Source: Luteolibacter yonseiensis
GTDB taxonomy: Bacteria; Verrucomicrobiota; Verrucomicrobiia; Verrucomicrobiales; Akkermansiaceae
DNA: 64,000 nt
Reading direction: 5' to 3'
Assembly (NCBI RefSeq): GCF_016595465.1
Contig: NZ_JAENIK010000012.1
Location: 186,001 to 250,000, forward strand
Made by a program: the position numbers and the translations under genes
Notes under the pieces: generated by a model
What the model was told of the DNA's origin: nothing
The model's database searches: none
The model's input: only the letters and a program-made list of their open reading frames with translations
Part shown: positions 35,590-45,418 of the stretch, one piece after another
How positions within the stretch are numbered: the stretch's first letter is position 1
Layout of the letters: the number at the start of each line of letters is the position of its first letter

Positions 35590-38500
35590 TTACGGAGTGA
35601 ACGGGATGGTCACCCTGAGCCGGGCGAATTTTTTCGGAGCGCCATCGGCAGGGATGACGACGGTGATGTCATCAGGATCCGTGCCGTTTTCCACGACGGT
35701 GAGAGGCGGGCCGTTGACGGCGTCTCTCATGATGGGGATGGACGCCCATGGTGGTTCGATGGAGGAGGAACTTTCCACGGCGATGGCATAATCCTTCGCG
35801 GCGTCCGCCCGTTTGAAACGGACGATGAGGTTGCCCGAGCCGTCCACGGTGGTGGCGACGGGGGATGCCGAGGTGCTGGCAACGGGCGAGGTGCCGGTGA
35901 CGAACTCGACGGCATTCGCGATGCCGTCGTGGTCAGGGTCCGCATCCGGAGCGCGGTCGGCACCGCTCAGGGAAGGGTAGGCGTCATACCATGCTTGATA
36001 AGGGGAAAGCGGGGTGGCGTTCGCTTGATTAGAGGTATTGCTCTCGCCATCGCCATTCGTGGCGGTGATGACGTAATAGTAGGCGGTGCCGATGGTGACA
36101 GCGGTATCCAGATAGCTGGTCGTGGAAAGGGTGGTAAGCGTGGTGTAGGGGCCGCCGGAGAGGGTGCCGCGTTTCACGATGTAGCTGGTGGCTCCGCTGA
36201 CAGGAGTCCAGCTCAGGTTGACCCGGGCATTTCCCGCGGTGGCGGTGAGTCCCGTCGGTGCGGCGGGAACGGGTGCCAGCGGGGTGGCGGTGGCTTGGGC
36301 GGAACCGCCCGTCTCCGCTCCGCCTTTCAATGCGGTCACGACGTAATGATAAGCGGTGCCGTTGGTGAGGCCGGTGTCGGTGTGACTCGGCGTGGTGACG
36401 GTGGCCACGGTGGTGTAGGGACCGCCCGAGGTCGTGGAGCGTTTCACATTGTAACCCGTGGCACCACTGGCGGCGTTCCAACCGAGTGCGACCTGGGAAT
36501 TTCCACGCGTCGCGACAAGATTGGCTGGCGGGGCGACGCTGGTGAGGACGATATTGTCGAGGAACACGGTGTTGTCTCCGCCTGCGAGATTGGTGCCGAC
36601 GAACGACAGCGTGTGGATGGCGGCGGTGGCGGGAAAGGTGGCCGTCACCGTGGTGAAACTGGTGGAGCCGGGGACGTGGCTCTGGATCACGTTGCCATCG
36701 ATGGCGACATCCCAGGATTCGCCGCCGTGCTGGGCCTCGCCCGAACGCTGGGCGGCCCTGTAGGTGAACGTGTAGACATTGCCGGGGACAAAACCGCCGA
36801 GGGTTTGGGAGATTTCCCCGTAGCCTTGGACGAAGGCGGCCTGCGTGCCGGCGGGCGACGCCGGGTTGCCGAATCCGCTGCCGTTCGCGACGATGCCGGA
36901 GCCGTTGCCGGGACTGCCGCCGAAGGTCCAGCGGGCGTCGGCGGGGTTGTAGCGGTAGTTGTTCGCGCCGATCGACGGGGTTTCGAAACTGAAATTGCGA
37001 TCGGTGTTCAGGATGGCGATGCGGGCGGCGCCGGAGTCGGCGCTGCTGCCGTTGTTGAAAAGCACCCGGGCGAAGACGGTGTGCCAGCCGGGGCCGGGGT
37101 TCGACCAGGCGAAGGTGTAGGGCGCGGTGGTGTCGGAACCGAGCAGGGTGGTGTTGTCCGCGTAGAATTCGACGCCGCTGACGAGGTTGCCCTTCGCGGT
37201 GACGCTTGCCGCGAGATTGACGGTTGCGGTGTTGGCAAACGAGGTATCGGTCGCCGGACTGGTCAGTGCGATGACGGGCGCGGCGGGCAGGGGCGGGGAG
37301 GAGAGCGTGACGTTGTCGATGAACACCGTGTTGTCGCCACCGTTGAGATTGGTGCCCGCAAAGGCGATGTTCTGGGTGGTCGCGGTGGCGGTGAAGGTCG
37401 CGGAGCAGGGAGTGTAACCCGTGCTGCCGGGGCTGTAGGATTGGATCACGGCGTTGTTCACCTTCACGTTCCATGTCTGGCCACCCTGTTGGCTCGCACC
37501 ACCTCTTTGCGCGGCGGAGAAGTTCAGCGTGTAGGTTTTTCCGACAGTGAATCCGGATACTGTCTGGGAAATGCTGCCGAGTGCCTGGACGATTCCGGCC
37601 TGCGTGCCGAGCGGGGCGTCCGCATTGTTGAAGGCGCTGCCATTTCCCGCGATGCCCGAGCCGCTGTTGCCACTCTGCGCGCTGAAGATCCATGTGGCTC
37701 CGGACGGGTTGTAGCGGTAACTGCCGCCGCCCGTGCCGATGTTCGGAGTTTCGAAACTGAAATTCGGAATCGCGGGCGTGGCGGTGGAGATCCGCACGGC
37801 ATCGATGAAGACGGTGTTATCGCCTCCGTTGGTGTTGGTTCCGGCGAAGGACACGGTGTGATAGGTGGCTGTGGCGGTGAAGGTGGCCGTGTAGGTGGCA
37901 TAGCTGGTGCCACCGGGAGCGTTGGTCTGGATGACGTTGCCATCGACGGCGAGATTCCACGTCTGCCCGCCGTTCTGCGCGCTGCCGGAGCGTTGGGCGG
38001 CGTAGTAGCTGATGATGTAGCTGGTGCCGGGAACGAATCCGGAGAGCGTCTGCGTGAAGGTGCTGATGCCTTGGACAAACGCCGCCTGCGAACCGTCGGG
38101 TGCGTTGGGATTTCCGAAAGCACTGCCATTGGCAAGGATGCCCGAACCGTTTCCTGAAACGCCGCTGAAAGTCCAGACACCGCCGGATGGATTGTAGGAA
38201 TGTCCGTTGATCCTGGGGTTTTCAAAGCTGAATCCGGCGATGGCGTTCGCCGGGGTGCTGGCTTCGGCGGAGTTCGCGCTCTGGCCATTCGCATTCACGG
38301 CGGCGACGACGTAATAATAGGTGACGCCGTGGGTCAGTCCGCTGTCGCTGAAGGTGAAGTTGGTGGTGGTGCCGACGGTGGTGTAGGGGCCGCCGGGAGT
38401 GGTGGCGCGTTTGATGGTGAAGCCGGTGGCTTCTGGTCCGCCCGCCCACGAGAGTTTGATCCGGAGGCCGGTGTCCGGCGCTGCGGTCAGGCCGGTGGGC

Positions 38501-40572
38501 ACGGGGGGGAAGAATTTCAGCACATCGATGAGGACCCGGCGTTTGGTTTCATTGTAGGCGGAGTCGTTCGTGTTCGTGATGTTTACAAAAATCTCGAACT
38601 GCACGGCATAGCGGCTGAAGTCTGCCGCGAGCGCGTAGTAGTCGAGCAGCGTGTTGTCCGCGACGCGGATGACACCGGTGTTGTCGATGGTGAAGGTCGC
38701 CCCGGTATTGCCGCCGGTGATCGTGTAAACGAGCGGGCTGGAGTTCGGATTCGTCGCGGGCACGGTGCCGACGGTGGTGTCGTTCGGGGCGTGTTCCCGC
38801 ACGCTCAGCCGGGTGGGTTTCCGCGCGCCCGCCACACTGCCGGAAATGGAGTAGTAGCCGAGGCTGGCGTAGTTCGAAAATCCATTGGTCAGGGGATCGT
38901 TCTTGCCAGCGCCGGTGACGCGGAAGGTGTAGGTGCCTGCGGCGAGGGTGGTGGTGATGGTGGATGAAATGGAACCCTGAGCGTCCGCCGTGTTGATGAC
39001 GACGTTGCCGGCATTCACGAGCGTGGCCTTGGTGGCAAGGTTCGCCCAATCGCCGACGGGACTGGCGGTCAGGGTCACCGCGCCGCCGGTGGTGGTGAAT
39101 TGGAAGGCATCCGTGTCGCCGGTCCGTTCGATGACGCCTTGGGCGGTGACATTGTTGTTGGTGGAGGAAACGTCGAGATAACGTGAGGTTGCGAGATTGT
39201 CTCCGGTGTCGTCGGTGCGGTAGCCGACGTTGTTGTTCGCGGTGGTGACGGTGAGCAGCTCGTCCTGATGCTCGTAGGCGTATTGGAATTCACCTTTGGC
39301 CCATGCCGTCACCGGCTGGTAGTAGCCCACGCCCATGATGGGTGCCCAGCCGGTCTCACCCGATCCCTGGCCGCCGTAGTATTCCTCGCGGTCCGTACCC
39401 GGATCGCCGTTGGGTTTCGGAAGGTCCCTCCCCTGGTGGCCGAGGCCGAGCGTGTGGCCCGACTCATGTGAGCCGACTTCCGCAGCGGCCTTTCCCGCAT
39501 AGTAGGCCGCCCAGCAGACGGTGTCGTTGCCCCAGTTCCATGATCCGAAATAAGCCACCCCGGCACCTGTCACGGGATTCGGACCGAAGCAGCATCGCTG
39601 GCGGCTCGCGGCGGGCGCGGCTTCGAATACCTTGATGTCGGTGGTGACGTTGATGTTGAACGGCATGAAATCCTCCGCGACGCGCTTCCAGACTTCCTTG
39701 ATGCCGGCGTTGTCGATGTTCGGCCGCGAATAGGTGACGCCACCCCAGCTCGATGTGTAGCCGCCCGCGAAATCCAAGTATAACACGGCGGGCGACCCGG
39801 GATAGCTTTGCAGGGAGACGATGTTCTCGCTGTAACTCGGCACATGGTCCCGCACCGCATCCGGACGCAGCGGCACGATGTTTTCCTCTTCCGCCGCAGA
39901 GGCTTTCACATGATCGTGACCGGCATGTTCGTCCTCCATCCCGATGCAGACGACCTCGTCGAGCTGACGCAGCCACAACTCGGGCGCCCCGTCATTTCCC
40001 GTCGGTTCGACGCGGTAGGCGGTCTTGCTTTCGGGGAACTCCATGACGGCCACGGCTTTGCCCGCTTTCCCGCCTTCCGGTGGATTCAGGATGAAAAACT
40101 TCCCGGTCTCCGGTGTGTCGAGAGTGCCGGAAACGTAGTTCACCCGGCCGTCCGCGATCTGGATGATCCTCACCACGCCGCGTGCGATCACACCCTCGGT
40201 CAGCTCGAACTCCACGGGGGAGCCATCTTTCGACTGCTTGAAACTCTGGAGAAACTCCGGGTCCCACGGGCGCTTGGATTTCCCCGGTCCTTGCAACCCC
40301 GCCGCGTAGGGATTGGTCCGGATGTCCATTTCCCGCGAGTGGGATCCGGGCGCGTTCGCCGCCGGGGAGGAAGCTGTCGCGGCGGCCCCATCGTCGGCAG
40401 CGGCAAACGGAGCCACAGCCTCGTCTTCGATCTTTTGGGGAGTCTCAGCGATGGAGGCCTCCGGTGTGACATCCGCAGGCGCATCCTGATGGCGGAAAAC
40501 CATGCCGCCGATCATCGCCAACAGCAGGATGAGTCCGACCGGAATGAGGTATTTTAAAGATGAGGTTTTCAA
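35590..40572 (-). CDS. Giant secreted metzincin-like metalloprotease with tandem beta repeats
   Basis: 1660 aa with an N-terminal membrane anchor/signal (LIPVGLILLLAMIGGMVF). After a propeptide-like region comes a metalloprotease domain with HESGHTLGLGH at 369-379 (HExxHxxGxxH) and a likely Met-turn APIMGVGYY. Next come a pre-peptidase/cadherin-like region, a fibronectin type III domain at about 690-775, and three homologous units of about 150 aa at roughly 781-928, 937-1091 and 1194-1346. Each unit opens FSFE(N/T)P and ends (T)VF(I/L)D. Two more FN3 domains and a C-terminal DPDHDGIANAVEF calcium-type motif finish the chain. Likely degrades protein substrates outside the cell. Confidence 0.85.
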   Translation of the reverse strand: MKTSSLKYLIPVGLILLLAMIGGMVFRHQDAPADVTPEASIAETPQKIEDEAVAPFAAADDGAAATASSPAANAPGSHSREMDIRTNPYAAGLQGPGKSKRPWDPEFLQSFKQSKDGSPVEFELTEGVIARGVVRIIQIADGRVNYVSGTLDTPETGKFFILNPPEGGKAGKAVAVMEFPESKTAYRVEPTGNDGAPELWLRQLDEVVCIGMEDEHAGHDHVKASAAEEENIVPLRPDAVRDHVPSYSENIVSLQSYPGSPAVLYLDFAGGYTSSWGGVTYSRPNIDNAGIKEVWKRVAEDFMPFNINVTTDIKVFEAAPAASRQRCCFGPNPVTGAGVAYFGSWNWGNDTVCWAAYYAGKAAAEVGSHESGHTLGLGHQGRDLPKPNGDPGTDREEYYGGQGSGETGWAPIMGVGYYQPVTAWAKGEFQYAYEHQDELLTVTTANNNVGYRTDDTGDNLATSRYLDVSSTNNNVTAQGVIERTGDTDAFQFTTTGGAVTLTASPVGDWANLATKATLVNAGNVVINTADAQGSISSTITTTLAAGTYTFRVTGAGKNDPLTNGFSNYASLGYYSISGSVAGARKPTRLSVREHAPNDTTVGTVPATNPNSSPLVYTITGGNTGATFTIDNTGVIRVADNTLLDYYALAADFSRYAVQFEIFVNITNTNDSAYNETKRRVLIDVLKFFPPVPTGLTAAPDTGLRIKLSWAGGPEATGFTIKRATTPGGPYTTVGTTTNFTFSDSGLTHGVTYYYVVAAVNANGQSANSAEASTPANAIAGFSFENPRINGHSYNPSGGVWTFSGVSGNGSGILANGSAFGNPNAPDGSQAAFVQGISTFTQTLSGFVPGTSYIISYYAAQRSGSAQNGGQTWNLAVDGNVIQTNAPGGTSYATYTATFTATATYHTVSFAGTNTNGGDNTVFIDAVRISTATPAIPNFSFETPNIGTGGGSYRYNPSGATWIFSAQSGNSGSGIAGNGSAFNNADAPLGTQAGIVQALGSISQTVSGFTVGKTYTLNFSAAQRGGASQQGGQTWNVKVNNAVIQSYSPGSTGYTPCSATFTATATTQNIAFAGTNLNGGDNTVFIDNVTLSSPPLPAAPVIALTSPATDTSFANTATVNLAASVTAKGNLVSGVEFYADNTTLLGSDTTAPYTFAWSNPGPGWHTVFARVLFNNGSSADSGAARIAILNTDRNFSFETPSIGANNYRYNPADARWTFGGSPGNGSGIVANGSGFGNPASPAGTQAAFVQGYGEISQTLGGFVPGNVYTFTYRAAQRSGEAQHGGESWDVAIDGNVIQSHVPGSTSFTTVTATFPATAAIHTLSFVGTNLAGGDNTVFLDNIVLTSVAPPANLVATRGNSQVALGWNAASGATGYNVKRSTTSGGPYTTVATVTTPSHTDTGLTNGTAYHYVVTALKGGAETGGSAQATATPLAPVPAAPTGLTATAGNARVNLSWTPVSGATSYIVKRGTLSGGPYTTLTTLSTTSYLDTAVTIGTAYYYVITATNGDGESNTSNQANATPLSPYQAWYDAYPSLSGADRAPDADPDHDGIANAVEFVTGTSPVASTSASPVATTVDGSGNLIVRFKRADAAKDYAIAVESSSSIEPPWASIPIMRDAVNGPPLTVVENGTDPDDITVVIPADGAPKKFARLRVTIPFTP
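36537..38232 (-). repeat. Three internal homologous units in the metalloprotease gene
   Basis: Approximate unit spans on the plus axis: 37788-38232, 37302-37763 and 36537-36992. Shared landmarks in each are FSFE(N/T)P near the start, RYNP or SYNP, W(T/I)F, GNGS, QAAFVQG or QAGIVQA, YxAAQRSG or similar, QxW(N/D)(L/V), GNVIQ or NAVIQ, and NGGDNTVF(I/L)D (third copy LAGGDNTVFLD). An FN3 domain separates earlier sequence from unit 1, and a shorter beta domain (YADNTTLLGSDTTAPYTFAW) sits between units 2 and 3. Confidence 0.8.
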
Positions 40573-43690: not shown

Positions 43691-45418
43691 ATGGCTCACG
43701 AAACACTTCACATCATACGGGCGACATGGAAACGCCTGCGAGGCGTACTGCGGTCGCTTCTGAAGTCTCCGCAAGGTCCGAGGGCGGTGGTGTTCGCGGT
43801 GACCCTGGTGCTGCTGATGATCGCGATCAACGGCCTTAACGTTTTGAACAGCTACGTGGGGCGGGATTTCATGTCGTCCATCGAGCACCGGAACATGAGG
43901 ATGTTCGAACTGCAGGCGCTCTACTATGTCGGGGTGTTCCTGCTCTCGACGGCGGCGGCGGTTCTTTATCGGTTCACGGAAGAACGTCTGGGGATTCTCT
44001 GGCGCGAGCAACTGACCCGACGGCTCATCGGAGCCTACATGGACGACCGGACCTACTATCGGCTGGACTCCGCCACGGGCGTGGCCAATCCCGACCAGCG
44101 TATTTCCGAAGATGTCAGGGCGTTCACGACCACCACGCTTTCGTTCATCCTGCTCATCGTGAACGGAACCCTGACGGCCATCTCCTTCTCCGGGGTCTTG
44201 TGGTCCATCAGTCCTTTTCTTTTCTGTGTGGCGGTGACGTATGCGGTCTGTGGTTCTGTGTTCACCATCTTGCTGGGAAAACCGCTGATCCGGCTGAATT
44301 ACAACCAGCTCGACATGGAGGCGAACTTCCGGGCGGATCTCATCCATGTGCGGGAGAATTCCGAATCCATCGCGCTCGCGCACCGCGAAGGCCGGTTCAA
44401 GGCTCGCCTGAACAAGCGGCTGGACGCCTTGACGACCAACTTCCGCCGGTTGATCCGCATCAACCGGAACCTCGGTTTCTTCACGAACGGATACAATTAT
44501 TTCATCCAGATCATTCCGGCCCTCATCATCGCTCCGATGTTTATCGCGGGAAACAAGGAGTTCGGTGTCATCACCCAATCCACCATGGCGTTCGCGACCC
44601 TCCTGGGCGCGTTCTCGCTCATCGTGACGCAGTTCCAGTCCATCTCGGCCTTTACCGCGGTTACGGCGCGGCTCCACAGTCTGAATGACGCCATCGAGAA
44701 AGCGCATGAGGTCACTCCTTGTTCCATCGCGGTCGATGAGACGGTCGACCGGATGATTTACGAGAACGTCACGCTTCTCACCGCGGATCGCGGCAGGGTG
44801 CTGCTGGCCGGATTGAATCTGGAGATCACCCGCGGGTCGCGCTGGCTGGTCAAGGCGCATGACGACGCGCAGAAGGTCGCGCTCTTCCGGGCCACGGCCA
44901 GCGTGTGGGACAATGGCGGCGGTCATATCATCCGTCCCGGACTCGACAATATCCTGTTCCTTCCCGAACGCCCTTACCTGCCACCCGGCACGCTGCGCGA
45001 GGTGCTGCTGCGGACCGGTGCGGAGAACGTGGTTCCGGATGAGTTGATCCACAGCGTGCTCGCGAAGCTGGATCTGGAGGAAATCATCGCCCGGGCGCAT
45101 GGCCTCGACACCGATCAGGATTGGGACGACCTGCTTTCCATCGGCGAGCAACACCTGCTGTCCGTCTCCCGGATTTTCCTCGCGAAACCCGCATTCGTCT
45201 TCCTGGACCGCCCCGGCAGCGCGCTCACGAAAAACCAGATTTCCAGCATCCTGGAGAAGTTGTCCGAGCAGGGCATCGGCTCCGTGGTCCTCTCGAAAAA
45301 CGGCGAGTCCCGGTTGCGTTATGATTCTGTTCTGGAGATCAAGGCGGATGGTTCGTGGGATGTGACCAGCGAAGCGGTGGCGGATGCGAACGGGGATCTC
45401 AATGACCTGAGTTGTTAG
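43691..45418 (+). CDS. SbmA/YddA-type ABC half-transporter with degenerate ATPase domain
   Basis: 575 aa. The N-terminal membrane half (about six helices; VFAVTLVLLMIAINGLNVLNSYVGRDFM, EQLTRRLIGAYMDDRTYYRL, NPDQRISEDVRAFTTTTLSF) matches the ABC_membrane_2/peroxisomal-ABCD-like family. The C-terminal nucleotide-binding domain keeps its overall order but not its chemistry. Where Walker A should read GPSGxGKS it has AHDDAQKV (389-396), and Walker B reads FLDRP (D506, R507) where the catalytic glutamate should be. The signature loop LSIGEQ is kept. It probably cannot hydrolyse ATP in the normal way. Upstream of a HerA-like ATPase gene by 74 bp. Confidence 0.85.
   Translation: MAHETLHIIRATWKRLRGVLRSLLKSPQGPRAVVFAVTLVLLMIAINGLNVLNSYVGRDFMSSIEHRNMRMFELQALYYVGVFLLSTAAAVLYRFTEERLGILWREQLTRRLIGAYMDDRTYYRLDSATGVANPDQRISEDVRAFTTTTLSFILLIVNGTLTAISFSGVLWSISPFLFCVAVTYAVCGSVFTILLGKPLIRLNYNQLDMEANFRADLIHVRENSESIALAHREGRFKARLNKRLDALTTNFRRLIRINRNLGFFTNGYNYFIQIIPALIIAPMFIAGNKEFGVITQSTMAFATLLGAFSLIVTQFQSISAFTAVTARLHSLNDAIEKAHEVTPCSIAVDETVDRMIYENVTLLTADRGRVLLAGLNLEITRGSRWLVKAHDDAQKVALFRATASVWDNGGGHIIRPGLDNILFLPERPYLPPGTLREVLLRTGAENVVPDELIHSVLAKLDLEEIIARAHGLDTDQDWDDLLSIGEQHLLSVSRIFLAKPAFVFLDRPGSALTKNQISSILEKLSEQGIGSVVLSKNGESRLRYDSVLEIKADGSWDVTSEAVADANGDLNDLSC

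Follow-up and report, generated by a model that had tools for sequence, protein, structure and literature searches.

An ABC Half-Transporter of Luteolibacter yonseiensis with a Degenerate ATPase Domain and a Possible Role in Beta-Gluco-Oligosaccharide Uptake

Introduction

Rv1819c, BacA-Mt and BclA are ABC_membrane_2 half-transporters which resemble the protein described here, P0001, in their domain order and probably in handling polar cargo. Rv1819c is known to have a large polar cavity and to accept unrelated hydrophilic cargo (PMC10960864, in part). Its nucleotide-binding domain (NBD) is functional and its transport is driven by ATP, whereas the ATP site is dead throughout the P0001 family. 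SbmA and BacA, known as SLiPTs, share with P0001 a related transmembrane domain (TMD), as judged from a PF05992 match, and the lack of ATP hydrolysis; they have been derived from ABC ancestors (PMC13316013, in part). SbmA is free of an NBD and differs further by its additional TM0 helices and its glutamate ladder, while most members of the P0001 family read here possess an NBD. In the available text of PMC12003926, SbmA/BacA are reported from Pseudomonadota only, and BclA from four phyla, with Verrucomicrobiota not among them. YddA of E. coli, described as having a partial ladder and proposed as the ancestor type of SLiPTs (PMC13316013, in part), is a full-length type IV half-transporter like P0001. 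According to our alignment, YddA keeps Walker A and the catalytic glutamate, both of which P0001 has lost.

In heterodimeric exporters such as TM287/288 and TAP, one half is degenerate in Walker B and the H-loop and the signature motif is kept. These exporters combine one live site with a partner gene, whereas no obligate partner was found for the P0001 family among intact paralogs. The Listeria locus lin1839-1841 is similar in another respect, with a transporter gene beside a gene for 1,2-beta-oligoglucan phosphorylase (SOGP), and SOGP there has been linked to the sophoro-oligosaccharide-binding subunit of an ABC importer (PMC12369401, in part). The Listeria transporter is an ABC importer with a sugar-binding subunit, whereas in the P0001 family an exporter-fold protein without an ATPase occupies the transporter slot. 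The route from an ABC pump to a secondary transporter is an open question; a 2026 study of SbmA raises, as speculation, a separation of the TMD from its NBD (PMC13316013, in part). In the open-access literature searched, we found no description of a homodimeric ABC family with both ATP sites dead.

Results and Discussion

Domain Organization of P0001

The window, a 64,000-nucleotide stretch of a Luteolibacter yonseiensis contig, encodes P0001 at positions 43691..45418. All coordinates given for P0001 are on the + strand. Its open frame, Pfam profile and fold match identify this 575-aa protein as a type IV ABC half-transporter and predicted pseudo-ATPase; the frame runs from ATG to TAG without a stop and, as stated in the first-pass annotation, is intact over 575 codons. 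PF06472 (ABC_membrane_2) matches residues 34-284 with 146.6 bits (cut-off 24.4), PF05992 (SbmA_BacA) gives a weaker match of 58.9 bits (cut-off 24), and PF00005 (ABC_tran) at 14.9 bits stays under its cut-off of 25. The closest solved relatives by sequence are an ABCD1-type full transporter (9wfu), Rv1819c (6tqe, third in rank) and ABCD4. The AF2 model has a mean pLDDT of 79.5 and a pTM of 0.59, with parts of the TMD much lower, and its top fold match in the PDB is again Rv1819c 6tqe, at 26% identity.

Based on the ABC_membrane_2 match and the AF2 helices, the TMD was assigned to residues 1-338 (43691..44704). Within it, residues 224-230 (44360..44380) are presumed to be coupling helix 2, as suggested by an AF2 helix and by group conservation. 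The degenerate NBD comprises residues 345-560 (44723..45370), with pLDDT of 79-93 in ten-residue blocks over 351-560 and only the sub-cut-off PF00005 match.

Motif reading and alignment of the NBD agree with what the first-pass annotation had reported: Walker A reads AHDDAQKV (residues 389-396, 44855..44878), Walker B reads FLDR (45200..45211) with Asp kept (D506) and the catalytic Glu replaced by Arg (R507), and the signature motif LSIGEQ is kept (residues 482-487, 45134..45151). None of the three P-loop glycines is left in Walker A, nor is the Mg-binding Ser/Thr, and the Lys (K395) is kept. Two further losses can be added, Gln to Glu at the Q-loop position (E426, 44966..44968, in LPERPYLPPGTL) and His to Lys at the H-loop position (K536, 45296..45298).

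An antisense ORF of 596 aa overlies the whole gene and is taken as a by-product of high GC. Five neighbors in the window were scanned, namely a large fibronectin/Ig protein, a TIM-barrel protein, a 3-keto-disaccharide hydrolase-like protein, a HerA-like ATPase and a protein with a sub-threshold cytochrome P460 match, and these five offer no functional lead. A 1,660-aa protein at 35590-40572 (-) contains fibronectin III and bacterial Ig domains and matches CBM60 weakly; inspection by eye also showed three internal repeats that resemble one another.

Loss of Catalytic Motifs Across the Family

A scan covered 84,980 species, each represented by one genome, and the best 80 of 306 relatives were taken. 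These include one NBD-less fragment and one sequence ending after the Q-loop; no canonical P-loop was found in the other motif rows of the best 80. They belong to Verrucomicrobiota (mostly Akkermansiaceae or Verrucomicrobia MAGs), Pseudomonadota (Chromatiaceae, Methylococcaceae, Nevskia and others), Thermodesulfobacteriota, Candidatus Rokuibacteriota and Gemmatimonadota.

A family census was then compiled from 104 distinct full-length members with at least 44% identity to P0001, leaving out fragments under 500 aa as well as L227, in which the first Gly is Ala and the rest of the P-loop is canonical. No member of the census has a canonical P-loop (0/104). The catalytic Glu position is occupied by Arg in 68 members, His in 32, Glu in one and other residues in three, and the Q-loop position by Glu in 101, Gln in two and Gly in one. 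The 25 homologs with an intact P-loop, whose identity over aligned sites does not exceed 38%, all have Gln at the Q-loop position. At the H-loop column, His is present in 24 of these 25 and in none of the 104, although five family members have a His one or two positions further on. Walker B Asp is kept in 98/104 and Walker A Lys in 67/104. The loss of all glycines noted in the first-pass annotation is true of P0001 itself and does not extend to the family, since the first Gly is kept in 57/104 members. Mosaics between dead and intact states were not found beyond single residues, which are the catalytic Glu of L038 and the Q-loop Gln of L153 and L170. In one Methylococcaceae sequence (L169), Walker B Asp is lost too (FAVLYNPFKDL). 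The motif reading of Chromatiales second copies of 40-42% identity covered one of them, the intact copy L248 in genome G486. It is near certain, judging by these motifs, that the P0001 family does not hydrolyze ATP, and most simply hydrolysis would have been lost once and never regained in the family.

Selection and Conservation of the Dead NBD

Among the 99 relatives searched, near-complete orthologs were identified in 23 other genomes of the genus at 63-80% identity. All 23 are free of stops and carry the same dead motifs as P0001. The dN/dS ratios were calculated by the Nei-Gojobori method using our own script; 53 pairs are reported, including 23 overlapping pairs at no less than 88% identity. 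For these 23, the ratios are 0.015-0.23 in the NBD versus 0.023-0.14 in the TMD, the NBD values often being slightly above those of the TMD yet far from neutral. These ratios indicate that the dead NBD is under purifying selection. The first-pass annotation had proposed selection for a non-hydrolytic function, and this is supported by losses fixed across the family, by NBD dN/dS well below 1 and by the nested NBD-free branch described below.

Lost catalytic motifs could also indicate a decaying pseudogene or a sequencing error, and in genome G010 the NBD is indeed found in a separate, overlapping frame. This explanation is extremely improbable given that the losses are common to 104 distinct homologs, that dN/dS is far under 1 and that none of the 23 near-complete same-genus orthologs contains a stop. 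Decay in one strain, with intact Walker motifs in its orthologs, was looked for and not found: in the alignment of orthologs suggested by the first-pass annotation, the losses are common to the relatives. Chance, strain-specific decay or sequencing error is ruled out by independently assembled homologs with the same losses.

Conservation is distributed unevenly over the NBD. At the Q-loop/X face, which meets the TMD, it is 0.78 in dead-NBD members versus 0.81 in intact proteins, while the corresponding values are 0.46 versus 0.89 for Walker A and 0.39 versus 0.71 for the H-loop. The best conserved NBD stretches of dead-NBD members are the Q-loop/X face and the helix following Walker A. Since the TMD-facing surface is conserved and the catalytic loops are relaxed, what seems to be maintained in the NBD is its fold and the interface to the TMD rather than catalysis. 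One observation counts against our preferred reading of the NBD as a structural or gating module. Mean conservation of residues 215-245, the region around the presumed coupling helix 2 that would contact the NBD, is lower in dead-NBD members (0.65) than in intact proteins (0.85), and it is 0.59 in TMD-only members; for comparison, the TMD means are 0.71, 0.72 and 0.82, respectively.

NBD-Free Branch and Relation to SbmA

In addition to P0001, the L. yonseiensis genome encodes an intact paralog (L002, 39% identity to P0001) and an NBD-less paralog of 343 aa (L003, 58% identity over residues 9-338). TMD trees were built from 53 sequences and later from 65 rows out of those at hand. In the 65-row tree, 39 dead-NBD rows, seven TMD-only rows and one split row form one clade with support of 100/99, a pattern repeated in the 53-sequence tree. 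The intact group is the neighbor of this clade (96/67) and YddA falls outside it. The TMD-only rows, the L. yonseiensis paralog included, are nested within the dead-NBD clade next to L038, a full dead-NBD member, and L047, the split row, with moderate support for a single origin (79/83).

A proton-driven transporter like SbmA had been proposed in the first-pass annotation. The likeness stands as an analogy only, as the tree, with one SbmA on a very long branch (4.56), places it among other intact ABC proteins. With the same limits of one SbmA and a long branch, the AU test rejects a clade that joins SbmA and the TMD-only rows (p 0.0017). A PF05992 search of 60 relatives gave no separate, true SbmA among the 35 matches listed, all of which are members of the P0001 family or its intact paralogs.

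In L047 (2130-3823, -; genome G010), the dead NBD is encoded in a separate frame overlapping the TMD frame. This may represent NBD loss in progress, or else an assembly or sequencing error. Compared with L038, the split NBD has a dN/dS of 0.33 and the TMD one of 0.18, which is in line with weakening constraint on the former. No NBD remnants were found downstream of six TMD-only genes (best E 0.47), and the seventh lies at a contig end. The TMD-only form is the sole family member found in four of its seven genomes. The simplest history suggested by the tree is that ATPase activity was lost first and the domain later, separately from SbmA.

Another possibility is that P0001 is the degenerate half of a heterodimer in which LSIGEQ completes the ATP site of an ATP-competent partner such as L002, in the manner of TM287/288. 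Such a half would be expected to keep the signature motif and to lose Walker A, the Walker B Glu and the H-loop, as is seen here, the intact L002 is present in the same genome, and intact paralogs adjoin a partner gene of the family (CL1, see below) in two genomes. However, an intact paralog was found in just eight of the 37 family genomes, which include some incomplete MAGs, and not in the other 29, so an obligate heterodimer with the intact paralog is unsupported. A dead Walker A would also be expected to face a degenerate signature, whereas that of the intact paralogs is perfect (mostly LSLGEQ), no ABC gene was found among nine scanned neighbor-cluster representatives (four of which matched no family), and the nested NBD-free branch includes genomes where its member is the only one of the family found. 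The search for an obligate partner covered intact paralogs. Overall, we consider a heterodimer quite unlikely.

Genomic Association with Glucan Enzymes

Clustering of ORFs around the 80 loci of the best relatives from the scan gave three recurrent partners of the transporter: a protein designated CL1, GH94 phosphorylases and GH1 beta-glucosidases. CL1 is a protein of ~1,030 aa with a discoidin domain and a remainder like (alpha/alpha)6-barrel glycosidases; its Foldseek matches are dextran dextrinase, GH63, GH94 and glucoamylase. In the members scanned, the barrel-like region has no Pfam catalytic match above cut-off, and CL1 is likely a new glycoside-active family. CL1 of L. yonseiensis (L196:8681-11764, +) has many acidic and aromatic residues that are invariant across phyla. 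The GH94 partners are of two kinds, SOGP and proteins resembling the phosphorylase end of cyclic beta-1,2-glucan synthase; the latter is the best PDB match of L102, the one stand-alone GH94 protein compared with the PDB. Stand-alone GH94 proteins of 1,081-1,235 aa were observed near the transporter at L100, L102, L103, L105, L158 and L167.

By tblastn of the fetched flanks, CL1 was found at 32 of the 80 loci, GH94/SOGP at 24 and GH1 at 21. At least one of them is present at 49/80 loci versus one of nine control loci of intact paralogs; at the remaining 31 there is no partner in the fetched flank, some flanks being short. Presence across whole genomes was compared in 99 relatives, among which 37 have the family, 36 have CL1 and 35 have both, while CL1 occurs in one of the 62 without the family (Fisher 3e-23, shared ancestry uncorrected). 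The 37 family genomes were compiled by hand from matches of about 45% identity or more, including fragments in G003, G040 and G046 and TMD-only forms in G014 and G022 and excluding a 124-residue fragment in G057. CL1 was called present above 200 bits, which excludes weak matches of at most 66 bits in G006, G035, G054 and G057; with these four counted, CL1 is present in 40/99, 35 with the family and five without. G014 and G040 have the family without a strong CL1, and G037 has CL1 without the family. SOGP_N was detected in 24/99 relatives, all among the 37 family genomes (Fisher 6e-14, shared ancestry uncorrected), and GH94 (PF17167) occurs outside the family genomes as well, in 11/62 relatives.

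In 147 genomes of the Thiocapsa order, the family is present in 29, CL1 in 30 and both in 29 (Fisher 7e-30, shared ancestry uncorrected). In 387 phylum genomes, the family is present in seven, each with CL1 at 47% identity or above, and a further 16 have distant CL1 relatives only (38% identity or below) and no family member. A CL1 match is missing from one Gemmatimonadota genome that has the family, and the only CL1 in one Methylotetracoccus genome is a distant one (31%). At four of seven loci, the TMD-only gene precedes SOGP on the same strand by 22-80 bp, according to tblastn bounds, and one of the other three loci is at a contig end. In L. yonseiensis, CL1 and SOGP adjoin each other away from the window gene; this SOGP (L196 11756-15127) scores 620 bits to PDB 5h3z and 229.6 bits to Pfam SOGP_N.

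Most CL1, SOGP and GH1 frames start without an evident signal peptide as judged by eye from uncurated start codons, the exceptions being CL1 of L147 and L151. The partner enzymes look cytoplasmic for this reason, which favors import. Cytoplasmic enzymes would also fit the recycling or export of an endogenous glucan. Intact ATPase paralogs were observed directly beside CL1 in two genomes (L182 and L248), suggesting that the pathway can use an ATP-driven form, and a single pathway may be served by forms that depend on ATP and forms that do not.

If the direction is outward, the family would export, independently of ATP, an endogenous beta-glucan or oligosaccharide that the GH94 enzyme makes or recycles. 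In favor of this, the protein has the fold of an exporter, the L102 GH94 resembles the phosphorylase end of a cyclic beta-1,2-glucan synthase, and no obvious secreted glucanase or outer-membrane protein was seen among the nine scanned neighbor-cluster representatives. On the other hand, SOGP and GH1 beta-glucosidase are indicative of breakdown, and SbmA and Rv1819c of the same fold import their cargo (PMC13316013 and PMC10960864, each in part), though the Rv1819c group is reported to be bidirectional. Export appears unlikely on balance.

The same enzymes could instead be anchored by P0001, or the NBD could sense a ligand, making the protein a regulatory or scaffold pseudo-ATPase and more a receptor than a transporter; a regulatory pseudo-ATPase had been named as an option in the first-pass annotation. 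Conservation of the NBD surface without catalysis and the tight genomic tie to cytoplasmic-looking enzymes would fit such a role. This is unlikely, however, as the TMD-only branch keeps its SOGP partner without an NBD and the nearest fold, Rv1819c, is a transporter of hydrophilic compounds (PMC10960864, in part).

Proposed Mechanism and Candidate Coupling Site

The explanation that we consider probable is an ATP-independent importer of beta-gluco-oligosaccharides with the dead NBD as a structural or gating module, its cargo and direction being deduced from the neighbors. P0001 would belong to an ancient family of type IV half-transporters with the Rv1819c/ABCD fold and presumably forms a homodimer. 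Its TMD would work by alternating access without ATP hydrolysis, and the dead NBD would serve for dimerization and for gating on the coupling helices. Such import is plausible in view of two precedents, the polar cavity of Rv1819c mentioned above and LmrA, which after removal of its NBD carries out ethidium-proton symport without ATP (PMC2704374, in part). Conserved neighbors point to beta-gluco-oligosaccharides as the likely cargo, 1,2-beta or sophoro-oligosaccharides in the lineage of L. yonseiensis, which would move inward to the phosphorylase, CL1 and GH1 enzymes. Transport could be driven by an ion gradient, most likely of protons. Alternatively, cytoplasmic phosphorolysis could keep the substrate gradient steep and inward, and simple facilitation is also possible.

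A proton-driven mechanism calls attention to acidic residues of the TMD. The columns of SbmA E193, E203, E269, E276, E287 and E378 correspond to E140, L150, N203, E210, R221 and A320 in P0001. The glutamate ladder thus fails at four of six positions, and the two acidic counterparts, E140 and E210, also occur in intact paralogs. The proton drive of the SbmA kind put forward in the first-pass annotation is weakened in this respect, and no known coupling site backs it since the ladder is mostly missing. A candidate for a different site is the pair of D208 and E210 in TM4 (44312..44320), where the family alignment places E210 in the column of SbmA E276. D208, two residues from E210, is Asp in 104/104 full-length and 7/7 TMD-only members; in 26 intact-type homologs the same column has no Asp and contains Glu in eight, Gln in seven, Lys in six, Arg in four and Tyr in one. 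Against a coupling role, eight of 25 intact P-loop proteins hold Glu at this column, and D208 is proposed as a candidate only, on the basis of its sequence conservation. Further family-specific polar residues are N47, N50 and Q273.

A broader interpretation is that the family represents a second, independent conversion of an ABC transporter into a secondary-active or facilitated one, with its stages (intact pump, transporter with a conserved dead NBD, split gene and transporter free of an NBD) living in one genus and one beta-glucan pathway, the dead NBD as an obligatory structural or gating part and D208 as a new coupling site. We put this forward tentatively, as somewhat short of an even chance. 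With living relatives at each stage, it would be possible to test directly in which order the events took place and what a dead NBD does. The family may also provide a candidate transporter of beta-1,2-gluco-oligosaccharides outside the classical importers, and it illustrates that a protein recognizable as ABC need not possess an ATPase.

The genome of Methylotetracoccus oryzae (G485, with L141) encodes five dead-NBD paralogs and one distant intact homolog, which suggests that the family has expanded in some methanotrophs.
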